Assembly (NCBI RefSeq): GCF_015209595.1
Contig: NZ_JADEYS010000008.1
Span: 124,001 to 188,000, forward strand
DNA from: Pontibacterium sinense
GTDB taxonomy: Bacteria > Pseudomonadota > Gammaproteobacteria > Pseudomonadales > Balneatricaceae
DNA length: 64,000 nt
Reading direction: 5' to 3'
In this document: positions 21,435-31,733 of the stretch, piece by piece
Layout: each line of letters starts with the position of its first letter
Position numbering within the stretch: position 1 is the stretch's first letter
The notes under the pieces: model-generated
The model's database searches: none
The model's input: only the letters and a program-made list of their open reading frames with translations
Told to the model about the DNA's origin: nothing
Translations under genes and position numbers: made by a program

Positions 21435-23579
21435 GTGTTGAAATCATTTCGTAGCCTGCTATTTACCCTGATCCTCTGCTTGTCACTGCTACTGACCTGG
21501 TGGGTTCAGCACCAAGCCTATGACTGGTCGATGACGCGTCTGAAGGAGCAGGGGGAGGATCGCCTGCTCAATACGATTATTGGCTTACGTACTGCAATCG
21601 ATAGTTACAAATATCTGCCGTTTCTGATCTCCCAGAACAAAGATGTGCAGGAACTGCTGCTCTATCCGGTGTTGGATAAGGGGGCGGAGGTCAGTCGTTT
21701 TCTGGAACAGATGAATCTGGTATCCGGTGCTACAGCACTGCTGGTGCTGGATCTGGATGGCCGGGCGTTGTCCTACAGTCGCTGGCGCGAAGAACAATCC
21801 TTTTTTCTGAAATCCCACGCGAATACCCCGTATTTCACGCAAGCCAGAAACGGTGAGCAGGGAGTTTATGTCGACAGCACCGTAGACGGGAAAGCGACAT
21901 CAATCTACCTCTCGGCACCGATCTACGATGCCAACCGTTTTATGGGGGTTGCCGTCGTACGTATCGATCTCAGTCAGCTGCAGGATAAGTTAAACCAGCT
22001 GGAAGAGTTCCTGTTGTTCACTGACAACGGCCGTGTGCTATTGGCCAGTGAGGTAGACTGGCGGGGCCAGAGGTTGCCTGAATTGATACGCAGCAGTGAC
22101 CAGCGGTTGCTATCAGATGGCAGTGAGCTTGCATTGAAAAACCTCAGTAGCGGTGAGCGGGTGCTATTTCAGGCGGTCGCGTTGCCTGATCTGGGATGGC
22201 AGGTCGCGGTCACCAGTAATATCTATCCGGTGTTGAGTACTCGTAATACGGCTGCTTTTATCAGTTTGGGCGGGTGTTTAGCACTGGGGCTGCTCTTGCT
22301 GTATATCCGGGAACGCCATCTGAAGAATATCTCCCGGCAAGAAACCCGTGATGCGCTGGAAAGCAGCGAGCGGCAGCAGAGGGATATTATCAACAATGCC
22401 CATGTGGGCATGATCGCTCTGAATACGCAGGGTAGCATCCGGTTTATTAATCCCATGGCGAGCCAGCAGTTTGGGGTGGGGAGCGAAAGGATACTCGGGT
22501 ATGCCGTGCAGGAGCTTATTGCAGGTGATGACGAGAGTTTTGGTCCCTTGCAGCGAACGTTATCGCGATTGGGCAGCAGTGGTTTTGCGCCATTAACGGC
22601 TCACGAAGCGGTGGGAAAACGCTCAGATGGCAGCCAGTTCCCGATGTTGATCTCGGTGAAACAGATGGTGGCGCAAGCAGATATGCTGTACTTGGTGACC
22701 GTGATCGATATTACCAAACGTAAGCGGCTGGAGGCGGCGTTACAGCGGGCGAATGATCAGCTGGAACATAAGGTGCTGGAGCGTACACAGGCGTTGCAGG
22801 AAGCACAGACTGAGCTGGTGCAAGCGGAGAAGATGGCGGCATTAGGGCGTATGTCTTCCGCGGTTGTACATGAGCTCAATCAGCCACTCACCGCGATGCG
22901 GACCTATCTGGCAATCTGCCGTCACCTGTTGAACGATGACAACTCGATGTTGGCTGAAAATCTGACCCTGATTGATGATCTGACTCAGCGTATGGCGCTG
23001 ATCACCCAGCAGCTGAAAACCTTTGCCTTCAAAAAACCGGATGCACTGGTGCCGGTGAAACCGGTCAATGCACTGGATCAGTCGCTGGTACTTTTCCGCG
23101 ACAGGATCAGCCAGGATGGTATCCAACTGGTGGTTGAAAGCCGTGATCCAACACTGGAGATCCTGGGCGACAATGCGCGATTGGAGCAGGTGTTTGTTAA
23201 CCTGATTAAGAACGCCTGCGATGCGATGAAAGGTTTGGATACGGATAAAGCACTAGCCATCAGGATTGCAGCTGATCCCCAATATCCAGAGGCTCAGGTC
23301 CGTATATCGGTATCGGACAGCGGCGGGGGGATCGACCCTGTAAACCTTAAGCACCTGTTTGATCCATTCTTCACCACCAAGTCGATCGGTGATGGCTTAG
23401 GATTAGGCTTATCCATTGTCAGCTCCATTGTGCAGGACCTTAATGGTCAGATCAGTGCTGAAAACCGGGTTGAAGGTGGGGCCTGCTTTACCGTTATACT
23501 GCCGCGCTATGTCTGCGCTCAAAGCGTCGAGAGCAGCAATGATGACACTCTAAATCCAGATCACCCGGAGAACTCCTGA
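21435..23579 (+). CDS. dctB: Sensor histidine kinase of the DctB family
   Basis: A 714-residue membrane kinase. Membrane segments lie at residues 6-26 and about 275-297, bracketing a periplasmic sensor domain of about 250 residues of the DctB double-PDC/Cache type. A cytoplasmic PAS (about 310-440) and coiled coil precede the HisKA box AALGRMSSAVVHELNQPLT with phosphorylated His479, then the ATPase motifs VFVNLIKNACDAM, DSGGGI and GLGLGLSIV. DctB senses C4-dicarboxylates and phosphorylates DctD. The frame starts with GTG 21435; TTG 21438 is possible. The stop overlaps dctD by one base (TGATG), so the pair is coupled. Linkage to a TRAP transporter fits the role; the true ligand here may differ. 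Confidence 0.87.
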   Translation: MLKSFRSLLFTLILCLSLLLTWWVQHQAYDWSMTRLKEQGEDRLLNTIIGLRTAIDSYKYLPFLISQNKDVQELLLYPVLDKGAEVSRFLEQMNLVSGATALLVLDLDGRALSYSRWREEQSFFLKSHANTPYFTQARNGEQGVYVDSTVDGKATSIYLSAPIYDANRFMGVAVVRIDLSQLQDKLNQLEEFLLFTDNGRVLLASEVDWRGQRLPELIRSSDQRLLSDGSELALKNLSSGERVLFQAVALPDLGWQVAVTSNIYPVLSTRNTAAFISLGGCLALGLLLLYIRERHLKNISRQETRDALESSERQQRDIINNAHVGMIALNTQGSIRFINPMASQQFGVGSERILGYAVQELIAGDDESFGPLQRTLSRLGSSGFAPLTAHEAVGKRSDGSQFPMLISVKQMVAQADMLYLVTVIDITKRKRLEAALQRANDQLEHKVLERTQALQEAQTELVQAEKMAALGRMSSAVVHELNQPLTAMRTYLAICRHLLNDDNSMLAENLTLIDDLTQRMALITQQLKTFAFKKPDALVPVKPVNALDQSLVLFRDRISQDGIQLVVESRDPTLEILGDNARLEQVFVNLIKNACDAMKGLDTDKALAIRIAADPQYPEAQVRISVSDSGGGIDPVNLKHLFDPFFTTKSIGDGLGLGLSIVSSIVQDLNGQISAENRVEGGACFTVILPRYVCAQSVESSNDDTLNPDHPENS

Positions 23580-24943
23580 TGCGCGGCACTGTAATGCTAA
23601 TCGACGATGAAGCGATGATCCGCCAGTCCACTGAGCAGTGGCTGAAGATTGCCGGGTTTGAGGTGCAGAGTTTTGAACATGCAGAAGCCGGGTTGGCTGC
23701 GCTGGATGATCAGTTCCCCGGCATTATCGTCTCCGATGTTAAAATGCCCGGCATGGACGGGTTGGCATTGATGGCTGAGGCGCAGCGGCGTATTCCCGAA
23801 CTGCCGGTGATCCTGATTACCGGTCACGGTGATGTGGATATGGCGATCAAAGCGATGCGCGAAGGGGCGTATGACTTTATCGAAAAACCCTTTGTGCCTG
23901 AGCGCTTGGTGGAGACGATCCACCGCGCCTGTGAAAAACGCCAGCTGATGGTGGAAAACCTGCGTTTACAGCAGAACCTGTCTTCCCAGTCGGGTTTGGA
24001 TGCAAAGCTGATTGGTATCTCACCCTCGATCCAGCGTCTTAAACGGGAGTTGCTGAAGTGTGCCGAACTGGACACCAACGTGATCATCTATGGCGAAACT
24101 GGCACGGGTAAAGAGCTGGTGGCGCAGTGTCTGCATGAGTTCAGCGGACGTGCGGCGCACAACTTCGTTCCGCTTAATTGTGGTGCTATTCCTGAAGCCC
24201 TGATTGAAAGTGAGCTCTTCGGGCATGAAGCGGGAGCGTTCACCAGTGCAGATAAGCAGCGGGTGGGTAAGTTTGAGTATGCCGATGGCGGTACGTTATT
24301 TCTTGATGAGATCGAGAGCATGCCCGCTAACCTGCAGATCAAATTATTGCGCGCATTGCAGGAAGGTGTGATTGAACGCCTGGGGTCCAATCAGCCGATG
24401 TCGGTGGATCTGCGTATCGTTGCGGCGTCTAAGGCGGATCTGCGCAGTGATGATCAGTTCCGTCAGGATCTTTACTATCGGCTGAACGTCACTCAACTGC
24501 ATATACCGCCGCTGCGTGAACGTATTGAAGATGTCCCTCTGTTGTTTGCCCATTATGCCCGACAGGCTGCGGGACAGCATCAGCGGGAGCTACGTCGCAC
24601 CACTGCACAAGATATTCAGAACCTGCAGCAATACAACTGGCCGGGCAATGTGCGTGAATTGAAGAATATCGCTGTGCGGTATGCGCTGGATGGCTCATTG
24701 GCGGTAGCGGATGTGCTCTATCCACAAGAACCGATGATGTCGGTTGAACCGGAGGAGAGTACGTTATCGCTGGCCGCTCAGGTGGCGAACTTTGAGAGTA
24801 AAGTGCTGGGCCGTTCCCTGTCCCGCCATCAGGGCAATATCAAAGCGGTTCTGGATGAGCTGGATCTGCCGCGCCGTACGCTTAATCAAAAGATGGCGAA
24901 ATACGGATTGAACCGCAGTGATTTTTTACCGGAAAGTGAATGA
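23579..24943 (+). CDS. dctD: Sigma-54-dependent response regulator of the DctD family
   Basis: A 454-residue NtrC-type regulator. The receiver (1-120) has the phosphorylated Asp53 in VSDVKMP. The AAA+ domain has Walker A GETGTGKE, Walker B LFLDEIES and the sigma-54-contact loop at residues 219-224, which reads GAFTSA instead of the usual GAFTGA. A Fis-type helix-turn-helix closes the protein (LSRHQGNIKAVLDELDLPRR). Phosphorylated DctD binds enhancer palindromes and opens sigma-54 promoters. Downstream, before the TAXI transporter gene, there are two matching palindromes and a textbook -24/-12 promoter, so that operon is its likely target. It is translationally coupled to dctB. Confidence 0.9.
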   Translation: MRGTVMLIDDEAMIRQSTEQWLKIAGFEVQSFEHAEAGLAALDDQFPGIIVSDVKMPGMDGLALMAEAQRRIPELPVILITGHGDVDMAIKAMREGAYDFIEKPFVPERLVETIHRACEKRQLMVENLRLQQNLSSQSGLDAKLIGISPSIQRLKRELLKCAELDTNVIIYGETGTGKELVAQCLHEFSGRAAHNFVPLNCGAIPEALIESELFGHEAGAFTSADKQRVGKFEYADGGTLFLDEIESMPANLQIKLLRALQEGVIERLGSNQPMSVDLRIVAASKADLRSDDQFRQDLYYRLNVTQLHIPPLRERIEDVPLLFAHYARQAAGQHQRELRRTTAQDIQNLQQYNWPGNVRELKNIAVRYALDGSLAVADVLYPQEPMMSVEPEESTLSLAAQVANFESKVLGRSLSRHQGNIKAVLDELDLPRRTLNQKMAKYGLNRSDFLPESE

Positions 24944-25218: not shown

Positions 25219-25235
25219 TTGGCCCCCTCCTTGCA
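25219..25235 (+). promoter_or_regulatory. Sigma-54 (-24/-12) promoter of the TAXI/TRAP operon
   Basis: The sequence TTGGCCCCCTCCTTGCA has GG (25221-25222) and GC (25233-25234) ten bases apart, the diagnostic RpoN spacing, with TGGC and TTGCA elements. Transcription would start near 25246, giving a leader of about 45 nt before the gene at 25292. Confidence 0.85.
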
Positions 25236-30147: not shown

Positions 30148-30402
30148 TCAGACTTTGTGAGAGGCGACAAAGTGTTCCAGCACTTGTTTCAGGACTGCAC
30201 AGTGAGCTTTGTCGCCGCTGGCTTCTGCTTTTTCGATGTCATCCATGATGATCTTACGAATTTTCTGTTCGCCATCGTGGGTGATCAGGTAATTCCCCAG
30301 CGCAGCTGCAACAATCGGTTCTACATGTTCGTGTTCGGCAATTGCTTCTACTTCGCCCGGTTCCAGACCGCATAGGTCCAGACATTCTTTGTAGGTCAAC
30401 AT
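30148..30402 (-). CDS. Small conserved helical protein of unknown function
   Basis: An 84-residue acidic protein with predicted helices throughout and no signal peptide. It begins MLTYKECLDLCGLEPGEV, and the ATG at 30402 has AGGGG 13 bases upstream; the ATG at 30411 would have it only 4 bases away. The two Cys near residues 8 and 12 and the two His near 23 and 26 are the only obvious ligand-type residues. I do not recognise the family with confidence; similar short proteins are present in marine gammaproteobacteria by general impression. It follows the diguanylate cyclase in the direction away from it, on the same strand. Confidence 0.6.
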   Translation of the reverse strand: MLTYKECLDLCGLEPGEVEAIAEHEHVEPIVAAALGNYLITHDGEQKIRKIIMDDIEKAEASGDKAHCAVLKQVLEHFVASHKV

Positions 30403-30411
30403 AGTGAACAT

Positions 30412-30834
30412 CCCCTGTAATTGAGTGATTAAGGATTACAGCTTTGAGATGGCCTTCATCTTCAGTCTAGTGTGTCTGCTGTCGTAAAGACTTCATCCAG
30501 ATCAATAAATTGGAGGATATCTGAAGGATATTTATACAGCTGTTTTTTCGAGCTTGAAGTGCTGTGTCGCGGATCAGTGACAACCTAACCTGTTGATTTA
30601 TATGTAAAGTAGGGTTTATTAGTTTTTTGTGTCTCCGATTGGAGACGGTTTGTGTGCTTATTTCAGATGTACACTCACAGAAGGAGAGTTTTTGAGTATT
30701 GGTGTGTTTTTAAGGTTTTGATATAAAAGGTTTTTTTTAAGTTGGTCTTTGGCTTGCTTTAGTACAGTCCATTACATGACAGGAACATCTGACTGCGACG
30801 ATGTCCGGCGTCACCGTTAAATGGAGGAGCTACG
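30412..30834. other. Intergenic region with a possible sigma-54 promoter
   Basis: No coding frame longer than a few dozen codons is supported here. The stretch is unusually T-rich in 30600-30745. It contains a small GTCTCC/GGAGAC hairpin at 30630-30645 and a candidate RpoN-type promoter at 30744-30757 upstream of the small ORF at 30835. The left part (30412-30520) is likely the promoter region of the minus-strand gene 30148-30402. Confidence 0.5.
30744..30757 (+). promoter_or_regulatory. Candidate sigma-54 promoter upstream of the 27-residue ORF
   Basis: GG at 30744-30745 and GC at 30756-30757 are ten bases apart within TTGGTCTTTGGCTTGCTTTA; the -12 TTGC is perfect, but the -24 element is TGGTCT rather than TGGCAC. 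A start near 30769 would give a leader of about 65 nt. No enhancer palindrome was found. Confidence 0.35.
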
Positions 30835-30918
30835 ATGCTAACTGAGTACTTTGTAAAACACTTTATAACGTTGTTTGTAATTGCTGAATCTTTAGCGCTG
30901 TACTTTTTCCTCGTCTGA
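30835..30918 (+). CDS. Predicted 27-residue single-span membrane protein
   Basis: ATG at 30835 follows GGAGG (30823-30827) with a 7-nt spacer, an ideal ribosome binding site. The 27 codons encode a short N-terminal part with one Glu and one Lys/His, then a hydrophobic stretch of about 16 residues rich in Phe, Leu, Val, Ile (internal ITLFVIAESLALYFFLV), ending TGA at 30918. A terminator-type hairpin starts 10 bp after the stop, so the gene has its own control signals. It is too short for routine gene callers. I do not recognise a family; small proteins of this size often bind and tune a membrane enzyme or transporter. Real translation is inferred, not shown. Confidence 0.62.
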   Translation: MLTEYFVKHFITLFVIAESLALYFFLV

Positions 30919-30927
30919 CTAATTTGG

Positions 30928-30957
30928 AAACTTATCTGGAGTTTGGATAAGTTTTCA
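30928..30957 (+). terminator. Terminator-like hairpin after the 27-residue ORF
   Basis: AAACTTATC (30928-30936) pairs with GATAAGTTT (30946-30954) with a 9-nt loop. The T-tract is short (TTTTC), so efficiency is uncertain, but the position 10 bp after the stop is telling. Confidence 0.6.
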
Positions 30958-31733
30958 CAGAATAAGACTGGCCTTGTTGCTGTGCTGGAAGGGGCAGCAA
31001 CGCGGTGGCATCTACAGGAAGTAGGTCACCACTGGCTATCGGATGCAGGTGGCGGCCTGGTAGTCGTCCGGTATGTTGAATCGAACAGGAGGCACAGTCT
31101 TCCCTTCCACTTAATGACCTTCATTAAATGCCAGTCTAAGCATTGTTAGTTCTTTCCCTCCTCGTATTCTTATCAATTCTGGTACTTTGGTTTTAGGCGT
31201 TAGCGTCATTGGTATGCTGTACCGCAATATTTGAGGCCCTATTTCAGCGGTATTCTATAAACGGGTATAGGTTCATAGAAGGGTGTGGTCTGACTCGTAT
31301 ATCCTTTTTCTTGTTCGCGATAGATCTTGAGCTGAGACGGCGTCATATCTGAAATATTCTTACTAGTTATAAGCTTATCTTTTGTTTTGTGTTCGTCAGA
31401 TCTTTGAATATGGCCTGAAAATGCATCATTCTTAAGCTTATAAGACTTTAGGATAGCAATACTCCAAATGGATAATGGGGTTTTATCGCATTGCACAAGA
31501 CATCGCTCTTGGATTGGGTATAATCGGCGGCAAAAGAAAAGCACCGCGGATTATAACTGTAATAAAGCTGTGGTTATTCCAGCGCAGTTAGCGAGTGCTT
31601 CGCGAGGGATCTCCGGAAATATCAGCGGGTTAACTCTGATCGACCATCAGGCCTAGCCAGCGAATGCAGCCACAAGCTCTGTTTCCGGTGTCATCTCACC
31701 TACCATTATTTACTATTGAATGGCGAAGTTGTT
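30958..31733. other. Gene-poor stretch before mqo
   Basis: I see no supported gene. A 68-codon plus-strand frame (30943-31149) and a 101-codon minus-strand frame (31239-31544, GTG start) lack ribosome binding sites and recognisable motifs. A perfect -10 box TATAAT at 31519-31524 lies about 210 bp upstream of the mqo start and may be its promoter, but no well-spaced -35 was found. Base composition is slightly lower in GC than the flanks. Confidence 0.4.

Follow-up and report, generated by a model that had tools for sequence, protein, structure and literature searches.

Small RNAs with a dual function, among them SgrS/SgrT, VcdRP and AzuCR, are accompanied by a small protein, and a set of small single-span proteins, such as MgrB, AcrZ, CydX and KdpF, act as regulators in the membrane. 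In Enterobacteriaceae, GlmY is activated by QseF (GlrR) from a sigma54 promoter, and at the E. coli sigma54 promoters of glmY and rpoE the QseF sites take the form TGTN12ACA or TGTCN10GACA and are aided by IHF (PMC6075780, PMC8745638). The locus described here lies upstream of mqo in a 64-kb stretch of DNA, the whole of which we call the window, and its predicted control resembles that of GlmY and GlmZ (Rfam RF00128 and RF00083) in the presence of TGTC-N10-GACA-type UASs, an IHF-like site and a -24/-12 promoter. It differs from them in having a short open reading frame, ORF27, and in its place upstream of mqo, whereas the position before the putative glrK gene of its own genome is occupied by an EF-hand-like ORF; the Rfam scan, RF00128 included, returned no match in the window, and RF00083 matched none of the four genomes that carry the locus at E ≤ 1. 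Membership in the GlmY/GlmZ family was rejected because there is no covariance-model match and the locus is not directly upstream of its own glr/qse kinase gene. The locus is most likely parallel to enterobacterial GlmY in its control and, by the tests made, not homologous to it. With the dual-function sRNAs it shares a short conserved ORF and a conserved RNA domain in an apparent single transcript, but the RNA is compact and has a candidate pseudoknot, and no U-tract terminator was found for it; with the small single-span regulators ORF27 shares its size and its one hydrophobic span, but it has no sequence family match. Our preferred reading, to which we assign a probability of about 0.58, is that a single GlrR/sigma54-driven transcript would both encode a membrane peptide and carry a structured RNA, and would belong to the GlrR regulon as a dual-function RNA. 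We infer translation, the shared transcript and the binding of GlrR from the sequences compared. Literature searched by titles and abstract openings, with subscription papers mostly beyond reach, gave no account of the ORF27/RNA locus.

ORF27 (MLTEYFVKHFITLFVIAESLALYFFLV, plus strand, 30835-30918) opens at an ATG at 30835 and runs for 27 codons to a TGA ending at 30918, with a GGAGG Shine-Dalgarno sequence (plus strand, 30823-30827) 7 nt before the start, exactly as the original prediction had it. That prediction also held that such signals around so short a frame were unlikely by chance, and on this point a comparison with random sequences is suggestive, not decisive: of the 11 frames in the 64-kb window that begin with ATG, span 20-40 codons and have GGAG or GAGG upstream, only ORF27 contains a strongly hydrophobic 17-mer, and size-matched first-order Markov sequences hold a mean of 29 such frames, 0.2 of them hydrophobic (maximum 2 hydrophobic in 60). 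The check that it had proposed, a search of relatives for conserved amino acids near mqo, found ORF27 kept, with the frame disrupted in none of the four carriers found. These are the window genome (G000), Pontibacterium granulatum (G002), an uncultured Marinobacterium (G003) and an Oceanospirillaceae MAG (G004); both the position upstream of mqo and the 27-codon length are thus kept in four of the five Pontibacterium-group genomes. The fifth, G001, has mqo in a different setting, with an unconvincing ORF27 protein match (E 0.73) and no RNA match. A DNA search over 57 genomes recovered part of the region in G004 (86% identity) and G002 (77%, 148 nt downstream of ORF27), and the counterparts upstream of mqo in G004, G002 and G003 (MLTEYFVKHFITLFVIAESLAVYFFLV, MLAEYLIKHFIPLFIVAEFVLLYQLLV and MVTEFLLRNFILMFLLVEYLVFYLLLS, 27 codons each) share 96, 59 and 37% identity with the window. 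Within the frame, the window and G004 differ at four bases, three of the changes being silent and one a Leu/Val exchange. When the columns of the ORF27 alignment were shuffled 20,000 times, the protein score was never reached, the identity count was reached 61 times, and every row was free of stops in 616 cases. That ORF27 is a real short gene, shared by a few marine bacteria of one group, is well supported by these comparisons. The original prediction had called it a membrane-protein gene: the comparison across carriers bears out the gene, while its membrane nature is predicted on hydrophobicity only, and the product is probably a single-span membrane peptide. No family was found for it in Pfam, NCBIfam or PHROGs, and no solved relative.

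A stem-loop does begin 6 nt past the ORF27 stop (30925-30957, plus strand; -13.5 kcal/mol, z -4.8), but we reject the earlier reading of it as a terminator, because it is A/U-rich and has no U-tract, is absent from the terminator scan and is poorly conserved, and because a conserved structured RNA lies beyond it. The hairpin is retained in G004, is impossible in G002, where only 14 nt separate the stop from the RNA, and was not seen in G003, where the spacer is different and 114 nt long; it is thus not seen in two of the four carriers. The region was also said to lack other genes. Indeed, a gap of 1.3 kb extends from the 87-aa gene (whose start codon ends at 30411) to the mqo ATG (31734), but the gap is not empty, because the conserved structured RNA follows the hairpin.

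The structured RNA (146 nt, plus strand, 30964-31109) starts 45 nt past the ORF27 stop in the window. It consists of a closing stem P1 (30964-30970/31095-31101), the hairpins HP1 (30976-30982/30995-31001), HP2 (31005-31015/31021-31029, with AGG in the loop) and HP3 (31037-31049/31056-31059 and 31065-31073), and the conserved sequence GAACAGGA (31083-31090), all on the plus strand, and it includes long invariant stretches. In the window its fold beats 198 of 200 shuffles (z -3.2). In the four-row alignment 91.4% of cells are paired, both sides change in 10 of 29 pairs, and the covariation score is 0.443, a value that none of 500 shuffles attains (0.210 in shuffles), while slid controls give 0.02-0.14, figures to be read in the light of a small alignment, a structure partly drawn from that same alignment, and kinship, which inflates such counts. 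P1, which stands outside the covariation count, has seven of seven standard pairs in each of the four genomes, with one G-U in G002 (strands AAGACUG/CAGUCUU, GAGACUG/CAGUCUC, GGGGCUG/CAGCCUC and GAGGCUG/CAGCCUC). The HP1 loop (GGAAGGGG, plus strand, 30987-30994) and the sequence directly after P1 (CCCTTCCA, plus strand, 31102-31109) are candidate strands of a pseudoknot: GGAAGGG in the loop is complementary to CCCUUCC (31102-31108), which lies directly 3' of P1, or one base later in G002 and G003 (the extra base lengthens the stem in G003), and the two would form 7 bp. Because both strands are invariant in the four carriers, this pairing is without support from covariation, and we consider it a good guess.

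The Rfam scan of the window found no family at threshold and none credible at E ≤ 5. A hairpin followed by ATTTT comes after the structured RNA in G004, and by eye no U-tract terminator follows it in the folds of the window, G002 and G003. Pairing of the RNA with the 5' regions of glmS in four genomes and of mqo in the window is not clearly better than that of shuffles (55-126 of 200 as good for glmS, 24 of 200 for mqo), both duplex tests being computed without accessibility. An RNA that titrates CsrA/RsmA was considered and rejected: there are 4-6 GGA motifs per RNA in the four genomes, and 106-873 of 2000 shuffles contain at least as many.

The RNA model matched four of 116 family genomes at E ≤ 1e-30 and 11 others at 0.008-0.97, the four carriers scoring 122-165 bits, as expected because the model was built from them, and the next genome 21.8 bits. 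The protein profile of ORF27 gave a similar picture over the 116 family genomes, with four at E ≤ 2e-12 and 21 others at 0.02-0.93, and by model and profile alike the window genome has one copy. A DNA query with the G002 version found 30 of the 116 at E ≤ 0.1; in G000, G002, G003 and G004 the locus is among the matches. In 390 genomes of the order, a sample without the other carriers, the exact pattern matched once, in the window genome itself; the exact-pattern scan of genome_contigs returned 20 stretches, of which three score as the RNA (L099, L100 and L103, the same three relatives), and the remainder reach at most 16.3 bits, with a single viral stretch that has no score. Nine loci from the DNA query (L009-L011, L021, L023-L025, L028 and L029) share the short motif I(S/T)LFIVPK(F/Y), which was set aside as part of an unrelated longer protein. 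Outside the group, neither ORF27 nor the RNA was convincingly found in the 116 family genomes or in the genome_contigs scan. Annotation easily overlooks genes of 27 codons, and RNA libraries easily overlook structured RNAs that are confined to one genus; both are present at this locus, each backed by its own evidence.

Upstream of ORF27, the four-genome alignment contains conserved islands that coincide with UAS1, TAA-N4-TTGATT, UAS2 and the -24/-12 region. UAS1 (TGTCGCGGATCAGTGACA, plus strand, 30565-30582) is a palindrome of the GlrR/QseF type, kept in all four carriers (in G003 a half-site carries one change), and it is the sole exact TGTC-N10-GACA in the window, where 25 sites lie within one mismatch of that pattern versus 25.7 expected by chance. 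UAS2 (TGTCTCCGATTGGAGACG, plus strand, 30630-30647) follows 65-67 bp after UAS1 in all four. Between them is TAACCTGTTGATT (plus strand, 30586-30598), of the form YAA-N4-YTGATW and at offset 21 in every carrier, which by the IHF consensus we take to be an IHF-like site. The element TGGTCT-TTGGC-TTGCT (plus strand, 30743-30758), located 113-125 bp downstream from the start of UAS2 in the four carriers, is presumably a -24/-12 promoter, judged by the sigma54 consensus. This element is good in G002 (TGGCAC-N5-TTGC) and G003 (TGGCAC-N5-TTGT); the TGGTCT of the window and G004 is a weak match, with three mismatches to TGGCAC in the window. Hence paired TGTC-N10-GACA-type UASs stand upstream of a -24/-12 element in all four carriers at equal spacing, that of the window being weak. 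UAS2 is also the single terminator-like site of the terminator scan, a reading that we do not favour because its partner palindrome, the spacing and the promoter are all conserved.

Which activator might act here? The window genome has 21 places that match the sigma54-activator domain at E ≤ 1e-20. For the activator on contig G000:C8 the best NCBIfam model is GlrR, at 682.8 bits (next model 436.9), below the curated cut-off of 763, and the gene order there is histidine kinase, a 164-aa protein with a lipobox (by eye) and the regulator, that is, kinase-lipoprotein-regulator. The lipoprotein has no Pfam family, and PF13942 is below cut-off in all four genomes. Three features stand upstream of this operon: an EF-hand-like ORF of 98 aa (motif by eye), a promoter of the form TGGCAC-N5-TTGA, and a pair of palindromes spaced 66 bp, with the -24 element 124 bp after UAS2. 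The spacing of the UASs and the -24 element at the ORF27 locus is thus that of the genome's own putative glrK-lipoprotein-glrR operon; the exception is the IHF-like site, which by the same rule is not present between the operon's palindromes. No copy of the structured RNA was found beside the operon (best 5.6 bits). A sigma54 activator within the window (23579-24943) adjoins a TAXI-TRAP-type transporter (names by eye), and before the transporter operon there is a -24/-12-like site at 25220; we do not favour this activator because the stretch upstream of that operon has no TGTC-N10-GACA within one mismatch. Other activators of the genome, which we presume from their C-termini to be CbrB-like and LuxO-like, were rejected because their sites differ.

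The pattern of this cassette hits exactly two places in the window genome in both of its versions, the glr operon and the ORF27 locus. Over the five group genomes the stricter version gives 11 rows versus 2 in a reversed control, and the looser one 17 versus 8, with 2 versus 2 in the window genome. Over the 116 family genomes there is no enrichment (30 rows versus 32 in the reversed control, by hand count), so that by itself the pattern says little and the case depends on position. From the 30 family-wide rows 17 places were read, namely 16 loci and the window, and L158 was scored additionally; the rows left out are L130-L135, L138-L140, L142, L143 and L154, the last being the other strand of L148. 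A -24 element of TGGCA or TGGTCT lies 94-125 bp after UAS2 in 12 of 15 scored cassettes, which were chosen from those read as intergenic, plus L158; L141 and L146 have TGGCA with TCGC replacing TTGC, and no -24 element is at that distance in L159, or in L162 and L166, which came from the looser pattern. The genes downstream of cassettes are, by eye, EF-hand-like in L136, L137, L145, L146, L147, L149 and at the second L151 cassette, and elsewhere acyltransferase-like (L141, L150), an 84-aa protein (L151) and ORF27. At the head of the glr-type operon of the window genome is a small EF-hand-like protein whose start resembles a signal peptide (L129, 6021-6317, minus strand), and similar proteins head similar cassettes elsewhere in the family (L136, L137, L145, L146, L149). 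Enterobacteria have glmY in this place, and the arrangement hints that calcium may be a component of the signal.

Under our preferred reading, the locus would be one transcription unit of about 350 nt; ORF27 and the RNA are taken as a unit because G002 has only 14 nt between the stop and the RNA. An envelope problem would be sensed by the GlrK-lipoprotein-GlrR system, and phosphorylated GlrR at the UASs, with the DNA bent by IHF, would open the sigma54 promoter. The transcript would be translated and the peptide inserted in the inner membrane, where it may bind and tune a membrane partner via the conserved E4, E18 and Y23, while the pseudoknotted 3' part might protect the transcript or be released as a regulatory RNA. 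Several observations weigh against this reading: the GlrR score under its cut-off, the lipoprotein without a Pfam family and PF13942 below cut-off, the three mismatches in the -24/-12 element of the window, the cassette pattern that shows no family-wide enrichment, the cassettes of L159, L162 and L166 that lack a -24 element at the expected distance, the want of a clear terminator after the RNA and of covariation in the pseudoknot, and a Shine-Dalgarno sequence that is largely paired in whole-transcript nested folds (mean unpaired 0.17-0.36). The known outputs of the predicted regulator in E. coli, glmY and rpoE, govern envelope homeostasis. A stronger version, in which the locus is a new class of pseudoknotted regulatory RNA with its own membrane peptide, taking in this marine lineage the place of enterobacterial GlmY as sigma54/GlrR output, is possible but tentative; if it is true, RNA and peptide would both act on the envelope, each at its own level, from a single transcript. 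If our preferred reading is right, the GlrR system adopts unrelated RNA outputs in different lineages, and the locus offers a compact test case for how work is divided between a peptide and an RNA that share a transcript.

The evidence can also be read with the peptide as the only part that matters, a small membrane regulator induced by GlrR and comparable to MgrB, AcrZ and CydX, and the RNA as a 3' UTR stability element without targets. The strong coding signature of ORF27, the position of the RNA downstream of it in all four carriers and the pairing with glmS and mqo 5' regions, no better than that of shuffles, would all fit, but the RNA is more elaborate than 3' stabilisers usually are and contains long invariant stretches, and we consider this explanation unlikely. 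The RNA could instead control translation of the peptide, with CCCUUCC switching between the HP1 loop and the ORF27 Shine-Dalgarno sequence. In whole-transcript nested folds of the window and G004, part of CCCUUCC finds its best partner in the Shine-Dalgarno sequence (0.43-0.60); CCCUUCC pairs elsewhere in G002 and G003, however, and any Shine-Dalgarno sequence fits C-rich strands, which makes such a switch quite improbable.

Slightly more doubtful again is a type I toxin, with ORF27 as the small hydrophobic toxin and the RNA as its control element. Size and hydrophobicity would suit a toxin, but the conserved RNA shares the strand of ORF27 and lies downstream of it, not antisense, the locus is single-copy in its own genome by model and profile, and the hydrophobic span includes a conserved Glu. 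Finally, ORF27 might be a chance open frame beside a conserved RNA, as its shortness and its want of a known family or solved relative would allow. This we find scarcely credible, given that length, frame and residues are kept in three relatives down to 37% identity and that shuffled columns so rarely reach its identity count and never its protein score.

Other features near these loci were also observed. A conserved 26-aa hydrophobic ORF, MEHISY(V/L)P(M/L)YLAA(L/F)GGFV(I/V)G(V/F)(V/A)VARA, occurs in L162 (1393-1473, plus strand; G002:C2) and L166 (1611-1691, minus strand; G003:C17); in both, its end adjoins a pair of TGTCTCC..GGAGACA palindromes, and the G003 copy lies beside pspBC-like genes (by eye). 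The 87-aa protein gene (30148-30411, minus strand) is conserved in synteny (84-87 aa, G003 included) and has no Pfam and no significant NCBIfam match. Between this gene and UAS1, the 13-mer CCAGATCAATAAA (30497-30509) is identical in the four carriers amid diverged sequence. The 5' leader of mqo (31445-31733), which has a promoter-like TTGGATTGGGTATAAT and no Rfam match, is a candidate leader regulator of mqo; about 290 nt are strongly conserved in the five group genomes at 84% mean column identity, including G001 despite its different upstream neighbourhood.
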